This document shows, one piece after another, positions 8,737-62,969 of a stretch of DNA of 64,000 nt. The stretch covers positions 15,267,484-15,331,483 of the forward strand of contig NC_061061.1 in assembly GCF_021917145.1 (NCBI RefSeq). Reading direction: 5' to 3'. The stretch comes from Hypomesus transpacificus (lineage: Eukaryota; Chordata; Actinopteri; Osmeriformes; Osmeridae). The translations under genes and the position numbers were made by a program. The notes below the pieces were generated by a model, which had not been told where the DNA came from, ran no database searches, and saw only the letters and a list, made by a program, of their open reading frames with translations. The first letter of the stretch is position 1. Every line of letters starts with the position of its first letter.

Positions 8737-22337
<13,601 letters not shown>

Positions 22338-22341
<4 letters not shown>

Positions 22342-23342
22342 TGTTTCTTGTCCGCTGCCTTTTCTCTCTCCTCCAACGCGTCACTCACCAGGCAAGTTTT
22401 CGAAATGAAATTGCGCAGCCGCAGTAAACTTGGACGTTAATGAGAAGTCTCGCGATATGAACATGCACTTAGGGAATAGGAGTCGGGAGGGATTTTAGTG
22501 GGATTTAGGAGGTTTATTATATTTAGGGCATTTTTACACAGGTGTAATCTATGTTCAGAGTGCATATACTGTATGTTATGTTATGCCAGGTTGCTTTGCC
22601 TTGCTTTGAGTGCCCAGACTGACTTTGTGTTGTTCTGTGCATCTGACAGTAAAATACTTGAACTTTATCAGCTCTGACTCCCGGAAATAAATTGTGATTC
22701 TCCTCTCCAATATTCTCGGAAACACAAAAGTAAATGTACAACATTCAGTGAGTTTGATACAGGTTTGGCCCCTGCCAGTTACATATGTCAGGTGCAACTT
22801 AATCCTTGTGTATCACCATGATTTATTTTTCTAAATATATTTCCTTGTTGCCAAGTTATTCATTATTCTACTAGTTGTGATCTGTTAAGGTAAAAAAAGT
22901 ATTACTGGTAGTGATAGGTGCAATAAGTGTACCGTATCTTTACACGTGTACATGTTTATCGTTGTTCTACTGATAACTTGGAAAGCTGTAAAATGTACCT
23001 CGTTGAGATTCAAAGTTTACATCCACAGTTCACATTCAGCTGTTCGCGTCTGCATCTTAAATTTTCTCTGTCAGAAGGTAAGCATATTTGGAACAAGGTG
23101 GCAAAACGTTATTATTATAATTAGAATATAGCCAAGATGTCCTGATATAATAAATAGAGACTGAACTGTTCTAGTTTTGTCCAATTTTTCTGAAACTTTG
23201 AATAAGAAAAGTTGTTCAATGTTGCTTGATTGCAAAGAAGTAGGGTTGGATAAAGTGATCATGAAAGTATATCATTCACATAATACCCCTTATACACAGT
23301 CTTTGTTTACATAATTTCTTCAAGATTGGTGTCCTCTCCAGA
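22338..23342. promoter_or_regulatory. Shared smarcc1 / F-type lectin upstream region
   Basis: About 1 kb separates the divergent ATGs of smarcc1 (22341, minus) and lectin copy 1 (23343, plus), so promoter elements of both must lie here or overlap. GCCGCAGTAAACTTGGACG and CTCGCGATATGAA near 22420-22460 are the GC-rich part, as expected for a housekeeping promoter. A donor-like GAAG|GTAAGC at 23076-23083 may end a non-coding lectin exon. The whole region is repeated at 26109-27112. No TATA box is assigned. Confidence 0.5.
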
Positions 23343-25083
23343 ATGTTGAAAGAAACAGCAGTCTTATTTTTGTTGGCTTTTCCTTGGATGTCATTTGGTG
23401 CCCTAGCTCCAAGTAAGCAGACAGTTATACTTTAATATTAAACTATAAATGTTTGACTCATTCTTAGAATGAGGGTTTAGATGGAGCCACACTTAAAAAT
23501 GTTTTCGGTTTCATGTGTATCGGTGTAGGCTACTTACACAGATCATTTTTTACAGAGAATCTTGCCTTGCGTGGAAAAGCCACTCAGTCAAACCTCATAG
23601 ATAATCCATACTCTGGCTACAGTGATGCAAACAATGCCATTGATGGGAATCGCAATCCAAATTTCTATGAGGGGTCTTGCACTGCTACTGACACTCAGAC
23701 CAATCCCTGGTGGAGAGTTGATCTGCTGGACACATTCATAATCACCTCTGTCACCATCACTAATAGAGGGGATGCTGTTCCTGAAAGGATCAATGGTGCT
23801 GAGGTCCATATTGGAAAATTCATACTGAACGATGCTTTTAACACTTTGTAAGACATTTTATTTTAAGATTTTACACTTTGGACTTTGTTAGTGTTGATAC
23901 AACTATTGTTTTTGACATTGTAATGTGCGACTTTATCTTTATCTTAATTGGAGCTATGTTTTTCAGCGATTATTTCTCAACAACCGTGGTATATTAGTTA
24001 TACATTTAACTCTAAATGTCTTTAGTGTTCATTCTCAAATGTTATATATTATACCACTAGTCACATTACTTATATATACACCTGTGATCATTTACTCAGC
24101 TTGATCTCACTTCTGGAAAAAACTAAATCTTCTCAGGGCTGGGGTCATTCCCTCTATATCAGCTGGAAGTTCTCTCACACTGAAATGGGCCAAAGGTGTG
24201 GAGGGACGTTATGTGACCGTGCGTCTTCCTGGGAGTGGAAGACTTCTTACACTCTGTGAAGTAGAGGTTTATGGGTATCCTCCTCCAACTGGTATATCAA
24301 AGCCCTCCTTTATTCCTGATCATTTTGAATGCAGTTTGTTGGTCATAAATATCCCAGGCAATTGAGGCAATTTATTGCTTGTCAGATTAAAATTACAGGT
24401 GATGTTAGATTTTAACTAAACTAATCATACAATCTTTGATTATTGTATGTAGTATGGTCTAAGCAAATAAATGGATAAAGACTCAAAGTAAATGCTTTTT
24501 TCTACCCTGAAGAAAATGTAGCCATAGCAGGAAAAGCTACACAGTCCTCTGTGCATGGCAGTGGGTTTGCCAACAACGCCATTGATGGCAACAGGAATGG
24601 TGTGTACGAAGACGGGTCTTGCACTCACACTAAAGCTACAATCAATCCCTGGTGGAGGGTAGACCTCCTGAAGACCTACAGAGTGTTCTCCGTCACCGTC
24701 ACAAATACAGTTAACAGTGTCCCGGAAAGACTTAATGGAGCTGAGATCCGCATTGGACATTCCCTTGACGGCAATGGAATCAATAATCCCAGGTGAATTT
24801 TGGGAGGTTGAGTTCTTGAATGTCAACGCATTACAGTCTACTCTACACATGACTTGATTGACTATGAAAGCAACATGCTGTGTGAGGCATTTACACCATT
24901 AAGATATGCTTACATATCTTTCTTGTTTTCAGATGTGCAGTGATATCTTCTATTCCAGCTGGATTTTCTGAGACATTCCAGTGTAATGGGATGGAGGGCC
25001 GTTTTGTCGTTATTGTCATTCCAGGAAGAGCGGAGTACCTTACTCTGTGTGAGGTAGAGGTGAAAGGTTCCCCTCTTGACTAA
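23343..25083 (+). CDS. Tandem-domain F-type lectin (fucolectin), copy 1
   Basis: Secreted carbohydrate-binding protein of the eel-fucolectin family, usually acting in innate recognition of fucosylated glycans. Exons 23343-23412, 23556-23847, 24137-24291, 24513-24792, 24933-25083 give 948 nt and 315 aa. The signal peptide is MLKETAVLFLLAFPWMSFGA. Two F-type domains follow (~24-172 and 173-313). Each starts NLALRGKATQS or NVAIAGKATQS, then has AIDGNRN, GSCT, NPWWRVDLL and a closing LTLCEVEV. Each domain is built from one long and one short exon, so the introns show an old internal duplication. Domain 1 has Arg94, Asp96 and Arg101 but Ala67 where eel lectin has His52. Domain 2 has His211 and Arg245 but Thr238 and Asn240. 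The poly(A) signal AATAAA is at 25340. Binding specificity is unproven. Confidence 0.95.
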
Positions 25084-25339
25084 AACATTAATTAAAATCT
25101 GCTGAAGGACTGTGGTGAGACAGTGTAGACAGAGGATTCAGATGAGAGTTTAAACTCAAACAAAAAAAGTTAAAAGTAAACATCACTGAATGCTGTTGTA
25201 AACCATGATCTGAAAAGAAGAAGCAAAAACCAATCGCAACCCAATAACCTAATTTTTCAGCCAAATTCATGGTAAAATCCTTTTTCTTCTTCTTTAAATT
25301 CACAGTGTCAATATGATTATGTAAATGAATTGTTTGCTC

Positions 25340-25345
25340 AATAAA
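25340..25345 (+). terminator. Poly(A) signal, lectin copy 1
   Basis: AATAAA lies 257 nt past the stop codon and is followed by a GT-rich stretch (TTGTTGCAATGTTCTAAGTTG is split by other bases). The same hexamer is at 29110 in copy 2. Confidence 0.7.
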
Positions 25346-25634
25346 TCTAACTTGTTGCAATGTTCTAAGTTGTTTTAGGCTACGTGTTGTGGTCTGACAG
25401 AATGAATATCTTTAGCTGGACTATAAAACAGTATTCAGAGTCCATCAACTTTCATCACAGTTCAATAGTCCTTTGTCACATGACGAAATAAAAACCCTCA
25501 TAAATCCAGCATCTTACAGTATGAATAATAATTCACTAAATCAAATATGAACTTGTATGTATTCGGAATTACAAAAAACTGTTGTTAATGTTGCAACTCA
25601 TGAACATTTATTTAAATGAATTAGCAGCGATACC

Positions 25635-26105
25635 TATGGAGGACCAAACCTGCCAAAATCAAAAATAAATGAATAAATAAATAAATGTATAAATAAATGT
25701 ACTTATACATAAAAAAATTTAAATATATAAAAATAAATGTATGAAAAAATATTAATTACGTATTTATTTATTTACATGGCCATTTATTTCTGTATTTATT
25801 TATTTTTGTATTTATTTATTTTTGTGTACATTTATTTCTGTATTTATTTATTTATGTGTACATTTATTTCTGTATTTCCTTGTCCTTAAGCTAATGAGGT
25901 AAGCTGTCAATCAATGTATGTCACGGTGTCACCTTAACCCCATTGGTTGATTGGTATCAGAGTGCGAAGATGGACTTTCCATGCCTGGGGTTGCTATGAA
26001 TACCTTAGTAAACAAAAGACTGCACACACGCAACAGATAGCCAGAGATTTGATAGTTTTGGCTAGCTAACCTTGCTAAAAAAAGTGCTAGTCAAAACTAT
26101 CAAAT
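25635..26105. mobile_element. Truncated palindromic element (left arm and loop)
   Basis: This is identical to 29405-29875 except one base (25719 T, 29489 G). It keeps the left terminus, the whole left arm, the loop and only the first ~14 nt of the right arm (CAAAACTATCAAAT), where the duplication junction cuts it. The GATACC target-site copy precedes it at 25629-25634; there is none on the right. Confidence 0.92.
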
Positions 26106-26108
26106 TGT

Positions 26109-27112
26109 CATTGTTTCTTGTCCGCTGCCTTTTCTCTCTCCTCCAACGCGTCACTCACCAGGCAAGTTTTCGAAATGAAATTGCGCAGCCGCAGTAAACT
26201 TGGACGTTAATGAGAAGTCTCGCGATATGAACATGCACTTAGGGAATAGGAGTCGGGAGGGATTTTAGTGGGATTTAGGAGGTTTATTATATTTAGGGCA
26301 TTTTTACACAGGTGTAATCTATGTTCAGAGTGCATATACTGTATGTTATGTTATGCCAGGTTGCTTTGCCTTGCTTTGAGTGCCCAGACTGACTTTGTGT
26401 TGTTCTGTGCATCTGACAGTAAAATACTTGAACTTTATCAGCTCTGACTCCCGGAAATAAATTGTGATTCTCCTCTCCAATATTCTCGGAAACACAAAAG
26501 TAAATGTACAACATTCAGTGAGTTTGATACAGGTTTGGCCCCTGCCAGTTACATATGTCAGGTGCAACTTAATCCTTGTGTATCACCATGATTTATTTTT
26601 CTAAATATATTTCCTTGTTGCCAAGTTATTCATTATTCTACTAGTTGTGATCTGTTAAGGTAAAAAAAGTATTACTGGTAGTGATAGGTGCAATAAGTGT
26701 ACCGTATCTTTACACGTGTACATGTTTATCGTTGTTCTACTGATAACTTGGAAAGCTGTAAAATGTACCTCGTTGAGATTCAAAGTTTACATCCACAGTT
26801 CACATTCAGCTGTTCGCGTCTGCATCTTAAATTTTCTCTGTCAGAAGGTAAGCATATTTGGAACAAGGTGGCAAAACGTTATTATTATAATTAGAATATA
26901 GCCAAGATGTCCTGATATAATAAATAGAGACTGAACTGTTCTAGTTTTGTCCAATTTTTCAGAAACTTTGAATAAGAAAAGTTGTTCAATGTTGCTTGAT
27001 TGCAAAGAAGTAGGGTTGGATAAAGTGATCATGAAAGTATATCATTCACATAATACCCCTTATACACAGTCTTTGTTTACATAATTTCTTCAAGATTGGT
27101 GTCCTCTCCAGA
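26109..27112. promoter_or_regulatory. Duplicated smarcc1/lectin upstream region
   Basis: This copies 22339-23342, including the smarcc1 promoter, 5' UTR and ATG (minus strand 26111-26109). Read on minus, the ATG is followed by ACA ATT TGA, so the copied start codon opens only a three-codon frame. The smarcc1 exon 1 body and its splice donor were not copied. On the plus side it serves lectin copy 2. Confidence 0.85.
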
Positions 27113-28853
27113 ATGTTGAAAGAAACAGCAGTCTTATTTTTGTTGGCTTTTCCTTGGATGTCATTTGGTGCCCTAGCTCCAAGTAAGCAGACAGTTATAC
27201 TTTAATATTAAACTATAAATGTTTGACTCATTCTTAGAATGAGGGTTTAGATGGAGCCACACTTAAAAATGTTTTCGGTTTCATGTGTATCGGTGTAGGC
27301 TACTTACACAGATCATTTTTTACAGAGAATCTTGCCTTGCGTGGAAAAGCCACTCAGTCAAACCTCATAGATAATCCATACTCTGGCTACAGTGATGCAA
27401 ACAATGCCATTGATGGGAATCGCAATCCAAATTTCTATGAGGGGTCTTGCACTGCTACTGACACTCAGACCAATCCCTGGTGGAGAGTTGATCTGCTGGA
27501 CACATTCATAATCACCTCTGTCACCATCACTAATAGAGGGGATGCTGTTCCTGAAAGGATCAATGGTGCTGAGGTCCATATTGGAAAATTCATACTGAAC
27601 GATGCTTTTAACACTTTGTAAGACATTTTATTTTAAGATTTTACACTTTGGACTTTGTTAGTGTTGATACAACTATTGTTTTTGACATTGTAATGTGCGA
27701 CTTTATCTTTATCTTAATTGGAGCTATGTTTTTCAGCGATTATTTCTCAACAACCGTGGTATATTAGTTATACATTTAACTCTAAATGTCTTTAGTGTTC
27801 ATTCTCAAATGTTATATATTATACCACTAGTCACATTACTTATATATACACCTGTGATCATTTACTCAGCTTGATCTCACTTCTGGAAAAAACTAAATCT
27901 TCTCAGGGCTGGGGTCATTCCCTCTATATCAGCTGGAAGATCTCTCACACTGAAATGGGCCAAAGGTGTGGAGGGACGTTATGTGACCGTGCGTCTTCCT
28001 GGGAGTGGAAGACTTCTTACACTCTGTGAAGTAGAGGTTTATGGGTATCCTCCTCCAACTGGTATATCAAAGCCCTCCTTTATTCCTGATCATTTTGAAT
28101 GCAGTTTGTTGGTCATAAATATCCCAGGCAATTGAGGCAATTTATTGCTTGTCAGATTAAAATTACAGGTGATGTTAGATTTTAACTAAACTAATCATAC
28201 AATCTTTGATTATTGTATGTAGTATGGTCTAAGCAAATAAATGGATAAAGACTCAAAGTAAATGCTTTTTTCTACCCTGAAGAAAATGTAGCCATAGCAG
28301 GAAAAGCTACACAGTCCTCTGTGCATGGCAGTGGGTTTGCCAACAACGCCATTGATGGCAACAGGAATGGTGTGTACGAAGACGGGTCTTGCACTCACAC
28401 TAAAGCTACAATCAATCCCTGGTGGAGGGTAGACCTCCTGAAGACCTACAGAGTGTTCTCCGTCACCGTCACAAATACAGTTAACAGTGTCCCGGAAAGA
28501 CTTAATGGAGCTGAGATCCGCATTGGACATTCCCTTGACGGCAATGGAATCAATAATCCCAGGTGAATTTTGGGAGGTTGAGTTCTTGAATGTCAACGCA
28601 TTACAGTCTACTCTACACATGACTTGATTGACTATGAAAGCAACATGCTGTGTGAGGCATTTACACCATTAAGATATGCTTACATATCTTTCTTGTTTTC
28701 AGATGTGCAGTGATATCTTCTATTCCAGCTGGATTTTCTGAGACATTCCAGTGTAATGGGATGGAGGGCCGTTTTGTCGTTATTGTCATTCCAGGAAGAG
28801 CGGAGTACCTTACTCTGTGTGAGGTAGAGGTGAAAGGTTCCCCTCTTGACTAA
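27113..28853 (+). CDS. Tandem-domain F-type lectin (fucolectin), copy 2
   Basis: Second complete lectin gene. Exons 27113-27182, 27326-27617, 27907-28061, 28283-28562, 28703-28853 give 315 aa. It is identical to copy 1 in coding sequence except one base at 27940 (AGT to AGA). That changes Ser132 to Arg in a strand of domain 1 (SISAGS to SISAGR). All splice sites, the signal peptide, both domains and the split sugar-binding residues are as in copy 1. It keeps the complete ~1 kb upstream region, so it should be expressed much like copy 1 unless the new neighbour (a full palindrome downstream) matters. There are no breaks or frameshifts. Confidence 0.95.
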
Positions 28854-29109
28854 AACATTAATTAAAATCTGCTGAAGGACTGTGGTGAGACAGTGTAGAC
28901 AGAGGATTCAGATGAGAGTTTAAACTCAAACAAAAAAAGTTAAAAGTAAACATCACTGAATGCTGTTGTAAACCATGATCTGAAAAGAAGAAGCAAAAAC
29001 CAATCGCAACCCAATAACCTAATTTTTCAGCCAAATTCATGGTAAAATCCTTTTTCTTCTTCTTTAAATTCACAGTGTCAATATGATTATGTAAATGAAT
29101 TGTTTGCTC

Positions 29110-29115
29110 AATAAA
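29110..29115 (+). terminator. Poly(A) signal, lectin copy 2
   Basis: AATAAA 257 nt past the stop, identical in context to copy 1. Confidence 0.7.
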
Positions 29116-29404
29116 TCTAACTTGTTGCAATGTTCTAAGTTGTTTTAGGCTACGTGTTGTGGTCTGACAGAATGAATATCTTTAGCTGGACTATAAAACA
29201 GTATTCAGAGTCCATCAACTTTCATCACAGTTCAATAGTCCTTTGTCACATGACGAAATAAAAACCCTCATAAATCCAGCATCTTACAGTATGAATAATA
29301 ATTCACTAAATCAAATATGAACTTGTATGTATTCGGAATTACAAAAAACTGTTGTTAATGTTGCAACTCATGAACATTTATTTAAATGAATTAGCAGCGA
29401 TACC

Positions 29405-30287
29405 TATGGAGGACCAAACCTGCCAAAATCAAAAATAAATGAATAAATAAATAAATGTATAAATAAATGTACTTATACATAAAAAAATGTAAATATATAA
29501 AAATAAATGTATGAAAAAATATTAATTACGTATTTATTTATTTACATGGCCATTTATTTCTGTATTTATTTATTTTTGTATTTATTTATTTTTGTGTACA
29601 TTTATTTCTGTATTTATTTATTTATGTGTACATTTATTTCTGTATTTCCTTGTCCTTAAGCTAATGAGGTAAGCTGTCAATCAATGTATGTCACGGTGTC
29701 ACCTTAACCCCATTGGTTGATTGGTATCAGAGTGCGAAGATGGACTTTCCATGCCTGGGGTTGCTATGAATACCTTAGTAAACAAAAGACTGCACACACG
29801 CAACAGATAGCCAGAGATTTGATAGTTTTGGCTAGCTAACCTTGCTAAAAAAAGTGCTAGTCAAAACTATCAAATCTCTGGCTATCTGTTGCGTGTGTGC
29901 AGTCTTTTGTTTACTAAGGTATTCATAGCAACCCTAGGCATGGAAAGTCCATCTTCGCACTCTGATACCAATCAACCAATGGGGTTAAGGTGACACCGTG
30001 ACATACATTGATTGACAGCTTACCTCATTAGCTTAAGGACAAGGAAATACAGAAATAAATGTACACACAAATAAATAAATACAGAAATAAATGTACACAG
30101 AAATAAATAAATACAAAAATAAATAAATACAGAAATAAATGGCCATGTAAATAAATAAATACGTAATTAATATTTTTTCATACATTTATTTTTATATATT
30201 TACATTTTTTTATGTATAAGTACATTTATTTATACATTTATTTATTTATTCATTTATTTTTGATTTTGGCAGGTTTGGTCCTCCATA
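29405..30287. mobile_element. Palindromic (foldback) element, 883 bp
   Basis: Two arms of about 425 bp (29405-29830 and 29862-30287) are inverted copies with only a few mismatches, separated by a ~31-nt loop. Termini are TATGGAGGACCAAACCTGCC and its complement. It is flanked by 6-bp direct repeats GATACC (29399-29404 and 30288-30293), which look like a target-site duplication. The outer third of each arm is AT-rich with ATAAATAAAT units and the inner part is unique. There is no ORF with a recognisable transposase. It fits a non-autonomous foldback or long-TIR MITE. I cannot name its superfamily. Confidence 0.85.
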
Positions 30288-30936: not shown

Positions 30937-33900
30937 TCAGGCAACCTGTGAAGTCTCTGTCAGGGCATAGGCTTGTTGTCTGGACCCTGACAGGCTTCTC
31001 AATCTCCTGTGAAGGGGTACATGGTGGGGATTCACATCAACAATAAACCATACTTGTAAACTTGTTAAAGGGGCAATTGACTGCAAAACCGATTTTACCT
31101 TGTCATTGTTGAAAAACGACAGTTCGGAGGGTAAACTGAACATACCGTGAATATCAAAGTCCATTGACACCTCTTTCCTATTCAAATCTCAAAAAGAAAA
31201 AAATTGGCTGTAAAACGCTAGCTTTTCAACAAAGCCACCGGTCCTACGTAGGACCGGTGATCGCCCTCTTATTGGCTCTGGTCTGTATCTTTGTCACGCC
31301 CCAGAATTTACATACAGACCAGTCTGAAGTAGCGTCTATCTCTGATACTAGTTTAGCTGCGCGCTGCTCTGTGTGGGCTACTTATAAGGAATTACAAAGA
31401 GGAACGTTTTGAATTATAACAAGGATATTGAAAATGGAGCACGGTCGTAAATGCTGTGTTCCAGGCTGTACAGGGAAGGCTAACACTCAGTCTTCCCAAG
31501 GAGCCAAACATTCAACAGGCATGGCTGCTGTTGTCTATGAGAAGATCCCAGCGAAGTTCGACACTCAATCATTCATTTGCTCTGAACATTTCACCCAAGA
31601 CAGTTTTGACAACCTTGGACAATTTCAAGCAGGATATGCTAGGAAGCTGAACCTGGAAAGAGGTGCTGTTCCAACCGTATGCTCATTGCAACCGTAAGCT
31701 ATAAGGACAGTATGATGTTGTGCTAACAGTTATTAGCAATGCTAACGTTTCCTGTATATAGCATACCAGGTAGAATGCTAAATACGTTTCTACACACATC
31801 AAATGACTCTAGCTAGACTAGCTGTAGTCGGTATTAGAAGGGAAGCTTCCGAAAAATAGCCAGAAAACGAACTGCAGTCTGGCTTATTGCTAACGCCTGT
31901 CCAGATAATCTATTTGAAAGAACTGGAGAAAGGCAGGTTATAGATACAGGATACGTTAGCATTGCTAGTAACTGTTACTAGTAACACCTAGACTGTAGGC
32001 ATGTAAACAAGTTTAGCTTGCTAGTTAATGCAAGAGCATAGGTAGAATGTGTGATCATTTAGCCTAGTTTATTGGCAATGGGGCTAACGTTGATTCATGT
32101 TCCTGACTGTGTTTCATTCAAATAAATAACCTGTGTAATGAAAATCTACAATTCACGATGCATGTTTGTCCAGATCTTTGTCATGTTATTTTACAGCAAG
32201 ATATCTAGAGCTAGCCTAGCTAGCTAACTGAAGCCGAGTAGAATCACGATATGGTTTGGTTGCTAAGCTGTAGCCTAACGTTCTACCCACCTAAGTCAAT
32301 CCAGTTTGCTTTAACAACAGCAGTGGAAACAAGTAATGTTATCATTTCAAATGATATATAGTCAATCTGTTGAAAACAGTGTTGTGTAGACACAATAGAT
32401 TTATTTGCGCGTTTTTATTTCAAGTCTCCAACTTCGGTGTTTCAGCGAGTGCTGCTGTTGGCCGTGTTGCGTTTTTGCTCCCAGCTTCACTCGTTGATAA
32501 CCAACCAATCAGCGCGCAGCTTATCTAAATATTAATGAGCATACCATAAAAGGAGAAAAGCTAGTGTTTTTTCCCGGGAACATTTCAGAGGATCTGTCAG
32601 AGGGCATAGAACAGCACCCGGGCCATTTTCAACCCAACCAATGTTACATACCCTATTCGGAGACCTTAAGGAACAGTGTGAAATACCCAAAAAACCCAGT
32701 CAATTGCCCCTTTAACTTCTAGTCTAATCATTCAGTTATTATTAGAACATTTCAAATACTTCACAAAACTGAAAATGTACACCTTAATACATTCATTTTA
32801 AAAGAAGTTCTGTTGATAATACACGCCTTCCTCTCTATCCCTTAGCCTCACCTTCCAATGCATGCCACTGTCACCAGGAGGACCAATATGATGGCCAGGG
32901 CCACACCTAAAATCACGATCTTGTTTTCAATCACAGACTCCAGCTTCTTTATTTTGTTCCAACAGGCACCATCTTCAGCAGAGTCACCTGAACATGAAAA
33001 CGTTTTAGAGGTTTGTAGGCCTACCTAAGATTTGCATAAATGGCCCAACTTGCAGCGCCCTAAATGTGTTTCGCTTTTGTGGTTGTTGTGGTTGTCAGGC
33101 AATAGTCCTTCAGAATAATGCCATGGCAACAGAAAGGATCACATGACTTCCTGACAGTTTATTTCAATTTTCAGACAGTGAAAGTTTACTCCCACAACCC
33201 ACCAAGCCAAGTTTTATCCATCTTGAAAAACCCTTAGCATAACCCATTGAATAATATAAAACAACATGTTTCCATGTACTGTAGCTGCTTTCAGAAGGAG
33301 TCCATTACCATAGAAGGAACCAAACAGACAGAATTAGCACACAGTGTGGCCTTCTGGAAAGAGGAAGAAGATGTACACATACTGAAACAGTGACAGAGAC
33401 AAACAGACAGACATGCAGGCAGTCAGGCAGGCAGGCAGGAAAGAGCAGAAAGAGCAGAAAGGCAGGTTGGAAAAATGTCTGGGTGGGAGGCAAGAGATAT
33501 ACAGAAAAACAGGCTTGCTGACCCAACACCAACTAGTGTAACAATCTTACTTGACACCATCAGCTGTATGCCACGCTGTGCAGGTAACTTCTCCACTGTG
33601 TGATTGGTGATTAGGTAGAAGACATATGTTGCACTGTCAGATGTACTCAAATCTGAGATACGCAGAGAGCAGTTCTTGCTGCCTGGTTTTCCCAGATACT
33701 CCACCCTGCCCAGGTAGGCAGGTTCAGGGAAGATCTGTGCACTGTGGTAAACATACCTGGGGGGCAGGTTGGAAGTGAATAGAATGAACTACAATTGAAT
33801 GGAATCAACGGACAGGCTGTGCATCCTGACCGAAAGATAGCCGATCAACCCAACACTAGCAGTAACTGTTTAATTGTTTAAGGAACGGTACCTGGGGGTG

Positions 33901-42565: not shown

Positions 42566-44264
42566 TCTCTCTGTCTGTCTTTCTAACTCTCTATAGGGAT
42601 ATGTAAACTATGTCCTCAAATCTACCAATCCTTCTCTCCTTTCTCCATCCCCCCCTCATTCCTCCACTCCTTGTTATTTATCCTACATCCTCTCCTTGTC
42701 TTCTCCTCTTGCCATTTCCTCCCCATCTCCCCCCTCTCCCTTTCCTCCTTCCCTCCATCTCTCCTCCAGGTATGCTAGCTGATGTCCTCCAGGAAGCTCA
42801 CGTGCCCATCATCAGTGATGCTGTGTGCAACGCCCCAGATTACTATGACAACCAGATCACCACCAGTATGTTTTGTGCCGGCTTTGAGAAAGGTGGCATT
42901 GATGCGTGTCAGGTCAGGACCCTATACTCCTGCTTTCCTGTCTTATTGTCAATTGACAATAGCGTTGCTTGACACTGCCTTTACATTGTGATACTTTAAT
43001 GTGTACTTTTAATTTAAGATTGCATTTCTCAGCCCTAATGTGGTGTGCATGTCTATGTGTCTATGTATGTGCTTGTGTATGTATGTGTGGCAGGGGGATA
43101 GTGGTGGTCCCTTTGTAGCAGAGGACTGCCTTTCCAAGGCTAGCCGCTACCGTCTGCTGGGTGTGGTGAGCTGGGGAACAGGCTGTGCCATGGCCAAGAA
43201 GCCTGGCGTTTATACCAGGGTGGCACGCTTCTTGCCATGGTTATCCACCGCAATGAGGGTGAGTGGGACAACACATATACATTTTGTATACACGAAAGCA
43301 CGGTCATAAGGATATCCTAGCAGTCTCATACTCATACTACATATGCACATACTACACAGAGTTTCCCGCAGCACTTTTCAGTTAAGGCGGCTGCTTAAGC
43401 AACACATGCCTGCCACCTTAAATAGGCCTACGTCATTACGGCGTTTTTGTTTTTGTTTTGCAGCGATATCCGTCGTGTCATTCTGTCCTGTTTTCTCCCT
43501 ACCATTCCAAAACGCCAATGTCCCTTCTCTGCAGCACGCATTAGTCTACCCCCCCCACACACACACACTTTAGTCTATCGCGGCAACCCCCCCCCCCCCC
43601 CCCCCCCCCCACCCTCCCCACGACTTGAACTAACACATTGTCTGCGGGAAACCCTGCTACATACACGAAACTGTACGCGCACACACACACGTCACATGTT
43701 GTCACAAAAGCACACTCAGAGATGCGTAGATTTAAGCAATAAGCCCCAAGAGGCCGTGTTTTGCGCTGATTTGCGCTAAGGGGAGTTACCTGTTCTAAAA
43801 TCAGCATAAAACACGCGGGGCTTATTGCTTTTCTAAAACTGTCACTACAAATATTTGATATGGAGTCATAATAAAAACAATTAGAAACAAAATTGTTTAA
43901 TAATAAACCGTCATTCTTCCGCCACTACAAAGTATAGTTCCTACATAAATCGTTGCCACGCAACAGCCAGATGGACACCTTTGCCGTGTTTTTATATTTG
44001 AAATTTTCGATACGCAGTAATATGGAATGTTAAAGAATGTTATGAGGACAACCTGTAAGGTTATGCTGGATTTTACAACATGGCATGTAACGCGACATAG
44101 CCAATCACAATCAAGGATGGGAACAACCAGTTTTAGAAACTAAAATACATAATAGTACATGATTCTATGTCATGGCAATAGTGTCACTGTGGAGTTAAAT
44201 TATCCTTTCTTCTCTGCAGACCTATCACAACTCTCCAGGCTTTCACAAGATGGCTAGAACATGA
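35960..44264 (+). CDS. hpn: Hepsin, type II transmembrane serine protease
   Basis: Cell-surface trypsin-like protease. Exons 35960-35978, 39656-39763, 39987-40028, 40154-40283, 40392-40511, 40719-40759, 40999-41164, 41402-41598, 42268-42363, 42770-42912, 43094-43258, 44220-44264 give 1272 nt and 423 aa (human hepsin 417). A short cytoplasmic N terminus is followed by the membrane anchor ([21 protein letters not shown], ~23-43). A hepsin-type SRCR domain follows (~57-152), with CSSEAN, SCEEMGF and FFCV. The activation site is DR164|I165VGG. Catalytic residues are His205 (SAAHC), Asp261 (SRDIAVL) and Ser357 (GDSGGP). Asp351, six residues before Ser357, predicts cleavage after Arg/Lys. DCGRR before the activation site keeps the Cys that tethers the two chains. 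All parts are intact. The first coding intron is 3.7 kb. Poly(A) signal at 44811. Confidence 0.97.
35979..39655 (+). other. hpn: Large hpn intron
   Basis: 3.7-kb intron between the MPETKNG exon and the membrane-anchor exon. It holds CA repeats (36384-36425, 37456-37511), TTTA units near 37885-37908 and a C/G-rich repeat-like patch at 39090-39255 (TTTGACCCCC and its near-inverse). No coding exon is recognised inside it. Confidence 0.6.
41608..41790. repeat. GACA/GAGA microsatellite in hpn
   Basis: Purine-rich GACAGACAGGCAGA and GAGA units just inside the intron after exon 41402-41598. It begins about 10 nt past the 5' splice site. Confidence 0.85.
42517..42580. repeat. (CT)n microsatellite in hpn
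   Basis: CT run with one CA interruption, followed by pyrimidine-rich DNA up to the CTCCAG acceptor at 42769. Confidence 0.9.
43587..43610. repeat. Poly-C tract, 24 bp
   Basis: Uninterrupted C run in the last hpn intron, giving poly-C in the pre-mRNA. Flanked by CA repeats. Confidence 0.93.
43728..44139. mobile_element. Dispersed repeat, copy B (pair with 19527)
   Basis: It shares about 300 bp with 19620-19925 (ACTACAAATATTTGATATGG onward). It begins with a small palindrome, TTAAGCAATAAGCCCC ... GGGGCTTATTGCTT, whose halves are inverted copies. It lies in the last hpn intron, about 80 bp before the final exon. No ORF. Confidence 0.72.
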
Positions 44265-44816: not shown

Positions 44817-46203
44817 TGTCTTCTGGTTTTTGAGTTGTTACAATGAATCAGATATGCCTCTACAGTTGCATGCACTGTCCAATTCTGGTCTTGCCCTCTC
44901 ACCAACATTTCACCAACAGGACAGAGGAACAACAGATGTTTATTAAGAAATCCTTCAATTAAAATTGTATTTTCTTTAATGAAAAAATTAAACTGAAGGA
45001 AACGCATCAAACGTTTACCAAGCTATACATAACATCTGTAATATGTGCCATAACCCTATGGATAGTCTTCTCTGAAGCCAACCTACATGATTCTGATTGA
45101 CATTTTTCTTCTGGTTTTGTAGATTTAGTCATTTAGCAGACGCTCTTATCCAGAGCGAGTTACATTAAGTCCAGGGACATTCCCCCCAAGGCAAGTAGGG
45201 TGAATATGCTTTGCCCAAGGACACAATGTCATTTTGCATGGCTGGGATTTGAACCGGCAACCTTCAGATTATTAGCCCGATTCCCTAACCACTAAGCCAT
45301 CTGACCACCATTTTGGCCCCTTTATTTTTTTTTCCTTCAGGCGTAGTCTACCAGAAGGTAGACATAAATGTGAATGTACGTATCTTTAGTGTTAATTAAT
45401 GAAATTAGCAAACAACTTTTGTTACTGATTACTGTTCTGTTCATTGTATGTCAATTCTCATGTTGCATAAGGTATTGAAATAAATTCATAATTTAATTAA
45501 TACTTTGAATGTCTTGTTGGTCCTGTGTTATTATTTCAGGTGTTGCATTGATTTCCTTGTCTCTACTATCTGTCTGTACGTCTTTTAAGCTGATAGGAGC
45601 ATTTTAAATGGCTTGAGTTAAAGTTAAAGTGAAAGACTGAAACTTACATCTCCAAGGCATCAGTAGTACTTGTTGTTTGTGTTGCTATTCTTTACCCTTG
45701 GCATAGGAGAGGTCAAGTTGAGTGTTTGCTTTGGAAGGGAAATGTCTTTACACAAATCACACCATCCTTCCTTGAGAAGAGTGTGACAAGGGCATGGCGG
45801 AAGACCTGAAGGAGGAAGCCAGAGACTCTGGTGATTGGTCCAGGGTGTGGGAACAAGTGAAGGGCTCAGTGTCATTTGCTCCTGGCTATTGCATTGCACT
45901 CAATCTGGTTTAGTGTCTTGCTAAACCTGTTCTCTGCTTCCTCAAACATATTGTTTGCAAATGAGAAGAAATGTTAGATTGCAGATAAAGACAGAGAGAG
46001 AGAGTTGACTAACTTCTGCGACAAACGACAGATACTTTAAAATAACAAAGGGACTGGAAGGGGCTGCAAACTACAGCTAATGTAACTAAGGGAACTAGGG
46101 GATAACTAAGGGAAGTATATAGCAACAGGGGTTTGGATGACAGGTTTCTGCTTATAGTTAACTCATGAGGAGGTTCTTTACTTTCTAGTTTTGAGGAAGA
46201 GAA
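44817..46203. other. Intergenic, hpn to Ig-like gene
   Basis: Contains one SINE (45119-45305). Otherwise nothing I can assign. The promoter and any 5' UTR of the next gene must lie in its right half. Confidence 0.55.
45119..45305 (-). mobile_element. tRNA-derived teleost SINE, copy 5
   Basis: Same family as the smarcc1 intron copies, tail at left and tRNA-like head at right. It is in intergenic DNA. Confidence 0.87.
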
Positions 46204-58609: not shown

Positions 58610-61317
58610 ATGGCCATGATCTCAGCTTGGGTTTTGATGGCAGGTGAGTGACGGGTCTTTTACATTTACATTTAGTCATTTAGCAGACGCTCTTATCCAG
58701 AGCGACCTACAGTACAGGGACATTCCCTCCAAAGCAAGTAGGGTGAAGTGCCTTGCCCAAGGACACAACATCATTTGGCACGGCTGGGATCGAATTAGCA
58801 ACCTTCAGATTACTAGCCCAACTCCCTCACCGCTCAGCCATCTGGCTCACTCAGTCCTTACCTGTCCTCTCAGACCGAACCTTATCATCAGTTATGACCA
58901 CCACCTCCTTCTCACAGAGGAAATTGACACGGTCTTAAGAGTTTGTGTCATAATATAAGCACGATTTTGTTGGACCATATACTAACAAAGAAACTGTACA
59001 GAGCATGAGTGGAGCACAGTACATGAATCCATTGACCTTTTTAAGAATGCTATTTAAGGACAATCTCCTTAACATAACACAACCGTTACAAGTGCTACAT
59101 TCACTGGCACAGCTGCCATTGTTGGGATGCCATTTAATATGGGAGTCAGGTGGCAGAGCGGTGAGGGAGTTGGGCTAGTAATCTGAAGGTTGCCAGTTCG
59201 ATTCCCGGTCGGTGCACATGACGTTGTGTCCTTGGGCAAGGCACTTCACCCTACTTGCCTCGGGGAGAATGTCCCTGTACTTACTGTAAGTCGCTCTGGA
59301 TAAGAGCTCTGCTAAATGACTAAATGTAATGGAAATGTAATGCAGCTTGTATTCTGTCAGCCTTACCATATATTTCTGTTACTTCCCAGTTGTATCCCTG
59401 GTTTTCGCTGAGGAGCAGAAACGTATGTACCAAGGCTTTATGTGGCACAGTTTCATAAACAAGTTTGGCGTGTGTGTATTTGAATGGAGATATGGACCAT
59501 ATGGGGCAGTCTGATCCTTGGTATTCAATGTTTAGGAAAGCAGAATTTGCAGTTCACCCACAAGGAGAAGCATCTGTTTGCATTATTCAGCCTTTGTCTG
59601 CATGAAGGGTGTTTTTTACTTTCAAACTGACTTGTCACCTCTCTGACTCTACAGCTGAAGAGGACCCATTTACCTTTGGTAAGTTCACTAGCGTCTAGTG
59701 TCAAGTCCTGAATCATAATATGATCCCTTGCTAGAAACTAACCTTTTTTTTCCTTTTTCCAGATTACCACAGGCTTCGTGTCGGTGGTCTGATCCTGGCA
59801 GCAGTCCTCTGCCTGATAGGCATCACTATTCTCTTCAGTAAGACTATCAGCATTAACTCAATGTCTCATACACGCTCTTACATATACAGAAAGAGGGTGT
59901 ATGTATAATTATTAGTTGTAGATATAGATATGCATACATACAGACACACAAACGCATAGGCACACGTGTACAGTGTCCTTAATGCTTCACACAGAAAGCC
60001 TACTACAAAGACATAGTGGCAGATAGTTGTGTTTGCTCACTTGCAGGTGGACACTGCCGATGCAAGTTTAACCAGGACAAGAGAAGGAGGACTGGAAGCA
60101 ACGCCCAGCAGATGCTAAATGACCAAGGTACAACTTCACCCTATTTTGCCAAGCATATTGTACATCATTTGATCAAATGTTCTTTTTTTTTTTTTGTCTG
60201 TTAAATTAGTTGAATAATTGGATGGAATCATTCTAATCTCAAAGTATTTTCCAGTTTCTACTGTATTGCTTTGTGTCTACCTCCCTCTCAAAAGACATTT
60301 GAAGGAGGCAAACGTAGGAGAAGGGAGAGAATACATCCTCCTCAATCTCAGTAGAGAGGCAGTGTTTGAGGCTGTGGGTGGGTTCTAGTCCGTCTGCCCT
60401 CCATATGTCTGTGTTGATTACCTGATGGCACATATGGCCATGGAGAGGCTTGTCTGACATGCATGCACTGGCACAGATATTCAGCCCAGCATCAGGTAGC
60501 ACTGATGCCCTTAGCCCTTTTTGCTCACAGATCTGATACTGGGCATTGGAAAAACACAATCTTATATGGACAATAATATCAGATCTTGTGTTGCATTGTG
60601 AACAAGGGCATGTTGGATGGAACACATTTCTGAAGATGAAACGCATGCATGGTCCTCGCTTTCCCACATGTAGCACGGAGAGGAAAAACACTAGTGTCAA
60701 TATTTCCATTATGACTCATCTGCTGTTGTGTGTGTGTGTGTACCCCTGAGAGTCACAGGGTGAGATGCATATACTTGAAGAGAGTCTGAGACAGAAAGCA
60801 AGTAAAGGCACTACCATGTGTTTAATTAACAAAAAAAGTAGCAATGTCAACTATTCCTCCACGGAGGGCTTCTCCTCAGGGAACCATGCTTCACCCGGAT
60901 TGGCTACTTACGCCTGTTGCAAAAAAAACAACGTTAGGAATGGACAGTAATCATGCAAATGTTTCTCTCCTGCTTTGTAGCTTGCTGTGTTTTCTCACTT
61001 TGAGCCCAGTTGGCTCAATTTATGTGGAGCGGAGTGTCTGTTAGCTGACGAGTCACAGCCGTGCTTGCTCATCAGCTAAGTCGGGAAACGTTCCAAGATG
61101 CTGCACACGACCTGGCCATGAGGGGGCCTGGGCCACTGGTGTGTGTGTGTGTGTGTGTTCCCCAAGATCAGAAACATCCCCGCCCAATGTCCTTCTCTGT
61201 GCTCAGTGTATTTGTAAAGCTAAATACTATTTGGAATTAGTGTTGGTATTTCCACGCTGGTCTGACCAACGTTCTATTTCTGTGTCTCTTTCACTAGCTC
61301 GGGCCAGTGAGTGTTAG
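58610..61317 (+). CDS. FXYD-domain regulator of Na,K-ATPase, second gene
   Basis: Exons 58610-58643, 59390-59422, 59655-59678, 59763-59837, 60047-60127, 61298-61317 give 267 nt and 88 aa. The first two exons (34 and 33 nt) and the membrane exon (75 nt) have exactly the lengths seen in the FXYD gene at 51887, so the two are tandem paralogues. The signal peptide is MAMISAWVLMAVVSLVFA. The signature reads EEDPFTFDYHRLRVGGL, with Phe30 in place of the Tyr of FXYD. The membrane span is GGLILAAVLCLIGITILF. The basic tail begins SGHCRCKFNQDKRRR, like mammalian FXYD1/FXYD6 (CRCKFNQ, CKCSFNQ), and ends QARASEC. Subtype not assigned. Poly(A) signal at 61365. Introns 1 and 5 are the longest. Confidence 0.92.
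58661..58852 (-). mobile_element. tRNA-derived teleost SINE, copy 6
   Basis: Same family. Its tail (TACATTTACATTTAGTCATT) starts 17 nt past the 5' splice site of the first coding exon of the second FXYD gene. Forms an inverted pair with the SINE at 59143. Confidence 0.88.
59143..59341 (+). mobile_element. tRNA-derived teleost SINE, copy 7
   Basis: Same family, opposite orientation to the copy at 58661 in the same FXYD intron. It ends about 48 nt before the next exon (59390). Head GTCAGGTGGCAGAGCGGTGA, tail CTAAATGACTAAATGTAA. Confidence 0.88.
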
Positions 61318-62819: not shown

Positions 62820-62969
62820 TTGGACAACTGGACAATCGATTCCTGGCAGTGCAAAATGACGTTGTGTCCTTGGGCAAGGCACTTCACCCTACTGGTCTCG
62901 GGGGAGTATCCCTGTACTTACTGTGAGTCGCTCTGGATAAGAGCATCTGCTAAATGACTAAAATGTAAA
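62820..62969 (+). mobile_element. tRNA-derived teleost SINE, copy 8 (5' truncated)
   Basis: Keeps the body (GACGTTGTGTCCTTGGGCAA) and the tail CTAAATGACTAAAATG followed by an A-rich end. The tRNA-like head is largely lost. Confidence 0.8.

Follow-up and report, generated by a model that had tools for sequence, protein, structure and literature searches.

How does a lectin gene come to stand twice in tandem when the copied segment begins at the start codon of a neighbouring gene and ends just beyond the centre of a long palindrome? The question is raised by a stretch of 64,000 nucleotides from Hypomesus transpacificus (GCF_021917145.1, NC_061061.1:15,267,484-15,331,483, forward strand), hereafter the window, for which the evidence base is a single assembly; genome searches covered the whole assembly containing the window (437 Mb, 376 contigs). 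The answer that we consider probable is that a transposon inserted beside the lectin gene and collapsed into a palindrome, that the hairpin of this palindrome stalled or broke replication, and that repair re-joined the DNA 3.77 kb upstream, leaving two copies of the gene.

The tandem duplication is a genuine feature of the assembly. A blastn self-comparison of the window, together with a base-by-base check, aligned positions 22339-26105 (copy 1) with positions 26109-29875 (copy 2), both on the forward strand, over 3767 bp with 99.92% identity and 0 gaps, and homology stops at once beyond the units on either side. The copies differ by three substitutions (23191/26961 T/A, 24170/27940 T/A and 25719/29489 T/G), which bears out the recent lectin duplication that an earlier note had read from the letters of this DNA. 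That note was also right about the three differing bases, while its unit length of 3770 bp is the period of the repeat, made up of 3767 bp and a filler of three bases, TGT, at 26106-26108. Copy 1 comprises the start codon and 5' region of a gene that we take to be smarcc1 (a name given by the appearance of its sequence and not by a database match), the whole lectin gene, and the left arm, the loop and the first 20 right-stem bases of the palindrome. The smarcc1 start codon forms the left breakpoint of the unit (22339-22341, reverse strand), reading CAT on the forward strand, with the coding sequence running leftwards according to its translation. At the junction between the copies, the palindrome breaks off 20 bases past its loop and is followed by TGT and then by the smarcc1 start codon, and this join, filler included, agrees with what had been described. 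The parental flanks of the two breakpoints, ACTATCAAAT/CTCTGG and CTGTCGC/CATTGTT (stroke at the breakpoint), are unrelated and devoid of useful homology; the earlier argument that crossing-over is unlikely holds, as there is no homologous tract for simple unequal crossing-over. By eye, the junction nearly matches smarcc1 codons 1-3 with codon 2 left out.

The palindrome in which the right breakpoint lies is complete in copy 2, where it spans 883 bp (29405-30287), runs from TATGG to CCATA and is flanked on both sides by GATACC, a 6-bp target-site duplication. Its loop of 19 nt occupies 29837-29855, and its arms of 432-436 bp, previously put at about 425 bp, contain 4 mismatches over 432 positions, the fourth being a G.T pair left by the deletion join that is described below. 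Copy 1 holds a truncated version (25635-26105) with the left arm, the loop and 20 right-stem bases, accompanied by the left GATACC only. A breakpoint beside the loop had been proposed before and is found; the right breakpoint, 29875, falls on base 20 of the right stem, and the 14th base named earlier is obtained only if counting begins after the G.T pair. With 71.6% AT, the palindrome has a predicted hairpin fold of -490 kcal/mol compared to a mean of -75 kcal/mol for 20 shuffles, and the 71-nt centre reaches a z of -8.4. No other close inverted repeat listed for the window comes near it in size: among the 9 ungapped inverted pairs of at least 40 bp that were listed, the next unrelated one has 66-bp arms with 91% identity, and the self-comparison yielded two weaker inverted repeats, at 14049-14265 (83%, gapped) and at 58666-58848/59143-59329 (88%, arms of about 185 bp, 294 bases apart).

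The origin of the palindrome can be read from related copies in the same genome. Its inner arm occurs as inverted pairs some kb apart on many contigs, with counts that are lower bounds, since 40 of 76 candidates from the inner-arm search were scored. Fifteen relatives were fetched, and for 14 of them both ends were found (in L015, one end was not found). These 14 are elements of 3.7-7.5 kb that all share the TA..TA ends of the window copy (TATGGAG..CTCCATA), and 13 of them have an exact 6-bp target-site duplication, while that of L014 has one mismatch. Some are giant near-palindromes, such as L016:468-5583 (5.1 kb), with 2456-bp arms of 99.8% identity separated by 210 bp. Nine other relative copies have arms of about 1.0-2.2 kb, and L037:4810-5365 appears by eye to be a different short derivative, which has kept about 26 bp of one end and has GCCAAA on both sides. 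In all 15 relatives, the inner repeat runs on as GTGCTAGTCAAGATG on both sides, and the window copy is therefore a deleted form. Compared with relative L012, it switches from the left repeat, at GTGCTAGTCAA, to the right repeat, at GCTAGCCAAAACTATC, the two forming a 9-base near-repeat. When up to 2 mismatches are allowed, the palindrome centre matches the 437-Mb assembly at only 2 places, the two window units. Judged by its ends, target-site duplications and relatives, the element is thus a private internal-deletion derivative of a transposon family with long terminal inverted repeats (TIRs) and 6-bp target-site duplications; the "foldback element" of the earlier note is kept as a palindromic element and corrected in its descent.

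The TA..TA ends and 6-bp target-site duplications are shared with the IS3EU/GingerRoot transposons, as these are described in the available part of PMC10045372. The window family differs from them by its very long inverted repeats and by the lack of such a transposase in the frames scanned: open frames of at least 120 aa were listed for the 15 copies, and the three longest, which were the ones scanned, gave matches to reverse transcriptase (L011 and L022) or a weak DUF4371 match below the cut-off (L023), with no IS3-like DDE transposase among them. Because no transposase was found, membership of the window family in IS3EU/GingerRoot is tentative.

A comparison of the arms with 28 repeat ends of the 14 relatives (428 columns) revealed 1 left-arm change common to both units, 2 changes in the right arm only and 1 change in copy 1 only. 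On account of these shared and private mutations, the insertion of the element and its internal deletion are placed before the duplication. This order is firm, while the ratio of the ages is not: 3 changes in about 864 element bases compared to 3 in 7534 unit bases give a ratio of element to duplication of about 8.7 with a 95% interval of 1.2-65.

The sequence of events that we favor would then be as follows. A long-TIR DNA transposon would have inserted about 550 bp downstream of the F-type lectin gene, creating the GATACC duplication, and its interior would have been lost via the 9-base near-repeat (GCTAGTCAA/GCTAGCCAA), which would have turned it into the near-perfect palindrome of 883 bp. 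At a later time, this palindrome may have formed a hairpin or cruciform that stalled a replication fork or was cut near its tip, and the end, 20 bases into the second stem, would have become linked, through three added bases, to the smarcc1 start codon 3.77 kb upstream. This last step can be envisaged in two ways. A strand that had been copied 20 bases past the loop might have folded on itself, left its template and switched 3.77 kb back, in the manner of fork stalling and template switching (FoSTeS) or microhomology-mediated break-induced replication (MMBIR); or the end made by a cut near the hairpin tip on one sister might have been joined to one made on the other sister, where the smarcc1 gene starts. 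The sequence fits template switching and two-break end joining equally well, and in both the hairpin would be the cause of the duplication.

Several observations weigh against this explanation. The event was observed a single time, and among the five relatives with about 10 kb of both flanks, none has a duplication whose boundary falls in the element, and none has a third transposon end. This search looked for direct repeats of at least 250 bp and at least 90% identity and for extra transposon ends, with 5 of the 15 fetched elements and 7 single stretches as control; around L019 and L021, it detected one direct repeat each, outside the element. The 7 single stretches are not a clean control, as arrays are present at L036 and L039. 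At L036:7717-9259, near-identical direct repeats form a tandem array at a distance of about 3 kb from a solitary transposon end; at L039, a short tandem array lies beside such an end. Furthermore, the change found in copy 1 only also occurs in 2 of the 28 relative ends and is therefore a weak mark of time. The flanks show no significant sign of a template for the TGT filler either: together with its neighbouring bases, it has a best flank match of 5 bp, and since 19 of the 64 possible fillers, TGT included, reach 5 bp or better, we infer neither a repair polymerase nor a template from it. Finally, the figure for the proximity of breakpoint and palindrome was calculated after the fact. This post hoc arithmetic (two tries, 64 kb) puts the probability that a random breakpoint falls within 29 bp of the palindrome centre at about 0.2%; including the two weaker inverted repeats of the window raises it to about 0.5%. 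So low a probability (about 0.2-0.5%) of a breakpoint this near to one of the window's close inverted repeats speaks against an ordinary non-homologous tandem duplication that lies beside a palindrome by coincidence, which the lack of such an event at all five relatives with both flanks and the choice of this case for its striking appearance would favor; taken together, we regard coincidence as very improbable.

The assembly itself may also be at fault, with two haplotypes that are 0.08% apart, or a chimeric read, strung together as a tandem repeat. Assemblers and polymerases tend to fail at palindrome centres, where one of the breakpoints sits, and 3 differences in 3767 bp fall within the ordinary range of heterozygosity. 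Moreover, no second-haplotype copy of the unit was found elsewhere in the assembly, this type of lectin exon and the smarcc1 side being matched only here, and it is for this reason that the assembly itself cannot settle the question. However, the window is free of any N and belongs to a contig of 17.2 Mb, neither flank extends into the three junction bases, the breakpoint at the smarcc1 start is not repetitive in the self-comparison, and the copies lack indel differences in spite of AT-rich runs. An artefact is, in our estimation, unlikely, though the chance of one is real enough to be kept in mind. A two-step origin would yield an identical final structure: a larger tandem duplication, followed by a deletion that removed everything between the copy-1 palindrome centre and the copy-2 smarcc1 start codon. 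Direct repeats of 300 bp with 93% identity (19627-19925 and 43839-44138) flank the region and could have been the substrate for crossing-over, and palindromes are deletion-prone as well, as the available text of PMC4319165 on long inverted repeats and deletions indicates. Nevertheless, this origin needs two events, and no trace of any larger duplication was detected within the window, so that we deem it improbable. A single hairpin-anchored duplication is the probable reading. Its extension to the whole family, in which internal-deletion derivatives would act as fragile germ-line palindromes that repeatedly copy neighbouring genes by switching at the hairpin tip, without moving themselves, is doubtful.

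The gene carried by the units was modeled by hand with GT/AG introns. Lectin gene copy 1 (23343-25083, forward strand) has exons at 23343-23412, 23556-23847, 24137-24291, 24513-24792 and 24933-25083, and lectin gene copy 2 (27113-28853, forward strand) has exons at 27113-27182, 27326-27617, 27907-28061, 28283-28562 and 28703-28853. Both genes have five exons and 315 codons with a reading frame that is open throughout, confirming the intact F-type lectin gene that had been claimed for each unit, and one of the three unit substitutions alters residue 132 (copy 1, Ser; copy 2, Arg). The protein matches two F5/8-type domain models of Pfam, F5_F8_type_C_2 among them, each in two stretches, and its residues 24-315 align to striped bass FBP32 (PDB 3cqo) with an E of 6.1e-115. 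These Pfam and PDB matches place its domains, by sequence, among the F-type domains, and with two of them the protein resembles the binary F-type lectins represented by FBP32.

The window lectin differs from these in that both of its domains are without the canonical fucose motif, given in the accessible part of PMC5712786 as H X24 R X D X4 R/K: 0 matches were found in either domain at spacings of 23-27. In the FBP32 control, domain 1 matches only at a spacing of 26 and domain 2 only with R-D replacing R-X-D, so that even this control departs from the motif as printed. The alignment to FBP32 shows Ala in place of His in domain 1 of the window lectin and loss of the first Arg in domain 2. As far as the same portion of PMC5712786 describes it, some members of the F-type family deviate from the motif, and domains that do so may differ in specificity or lack it. 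Of the 44 exon-sized lectin matches in the assembly, 10 belong to the window units and 6 to contig 60; the remaining 28 are at 8.22-8.32 Mb on the contig that also carries the window, and the window pair is a small part of the genome's F-type lectin family. The F-type cluster (C2:8224137-8319278), about 7 Mb from the window, includes three matches spaced 1.2 kb apart (8224513, 8225715 and 8226920). The description as an "immune lectin" therefore stands with respect to the F-type lectin and is weakened with respect to its immune label, because the fucose motif is lacking and 34 of the 44 exon matches lie in two clusters elsewhere.

In the second unit, the duplication has left an orphan copy of the smarcc1 start codon (26109-26111, reverse strand), which reads Met-Thr-Ile-stop into the element; that an antisense transcript starts from it is conjecture. 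In the smarcc1 region, the window contains a run of 56 G (12813-12868). Elsewhere, Rfam matches mark four UnaL2 long interspersed nuclear element (LINE) 3' elements (18127-18180, 45123-45176, 58670-58723 and 62910-62963), which the self-comparison assigns to a repeat family of about 185 bp in the window, and the open frame 31413-31697 resembles, by eye only, a THAP-type zinc finger and is listed as a candidate.

If reads confirm the duplication, the locus would record, in order, the insertion of a transposon, its collapse to a palindrome and a hairpin-anchored gene duplication. It would then be a natural non-human case of a palindrome-centre break yielding a tandem copy of a gene and of the region upstream of it. 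The transposon family, for its part, supplies many further test sites in this genome. None of the titles listed in our literature searches concerns this locus, and we do not claim that the combination of palindrome and duplication is absent from print.

Among known systems, a close likeness is with human Xq27.1, where, according to the accessible sections of PMC6489244, every reported insertion has a breakpoint close to the centre of the palindrome and a hairpin followed by MMBIR has been proposed. As in the window, duplicated DNA is joined near the centre of a palindrome, a replication-based repair is considered, and the joins of the reported case, with only 1-2 bp of homology, are comparable to the non-homologous join described here. 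By the same account, the DNA copied at Xq27.1 originates on other chromosomes or in the far arm, whereas in the window it is the adjacent 3.77 kb, and the human palindrome measures 180 bp compared to the 883-bp transposon remnant. The palindromic AT-rich repeats (PATRRs) PATRR11 and PATRR22 are likewise near-perfect palindromes of several hundred bp, and the available part of PMC7999016 states that PATRR palindromes can extrude cruciforms and break; as described there, they differ by an AT content above 90% and by giving rise to translocations, whereas the window palindrome has the lower AT content given above and is tied to a tandem duplication. As is typical of rearrangements of this kind, the window has a near-perfect, hairpin-capable palindrome that is hundreds of bp long (arms of 432 bp, 4 mismatches, 19-nt loop) and a breakpoint near the centre without long homology (20 bases past the loop, with a 3-bp filler). 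Recurrence is a further mark of this class. By analogy, the locus would be best filed with the known palindrome-centre rearrangements, with a transposon derivative serving as the palindrome.

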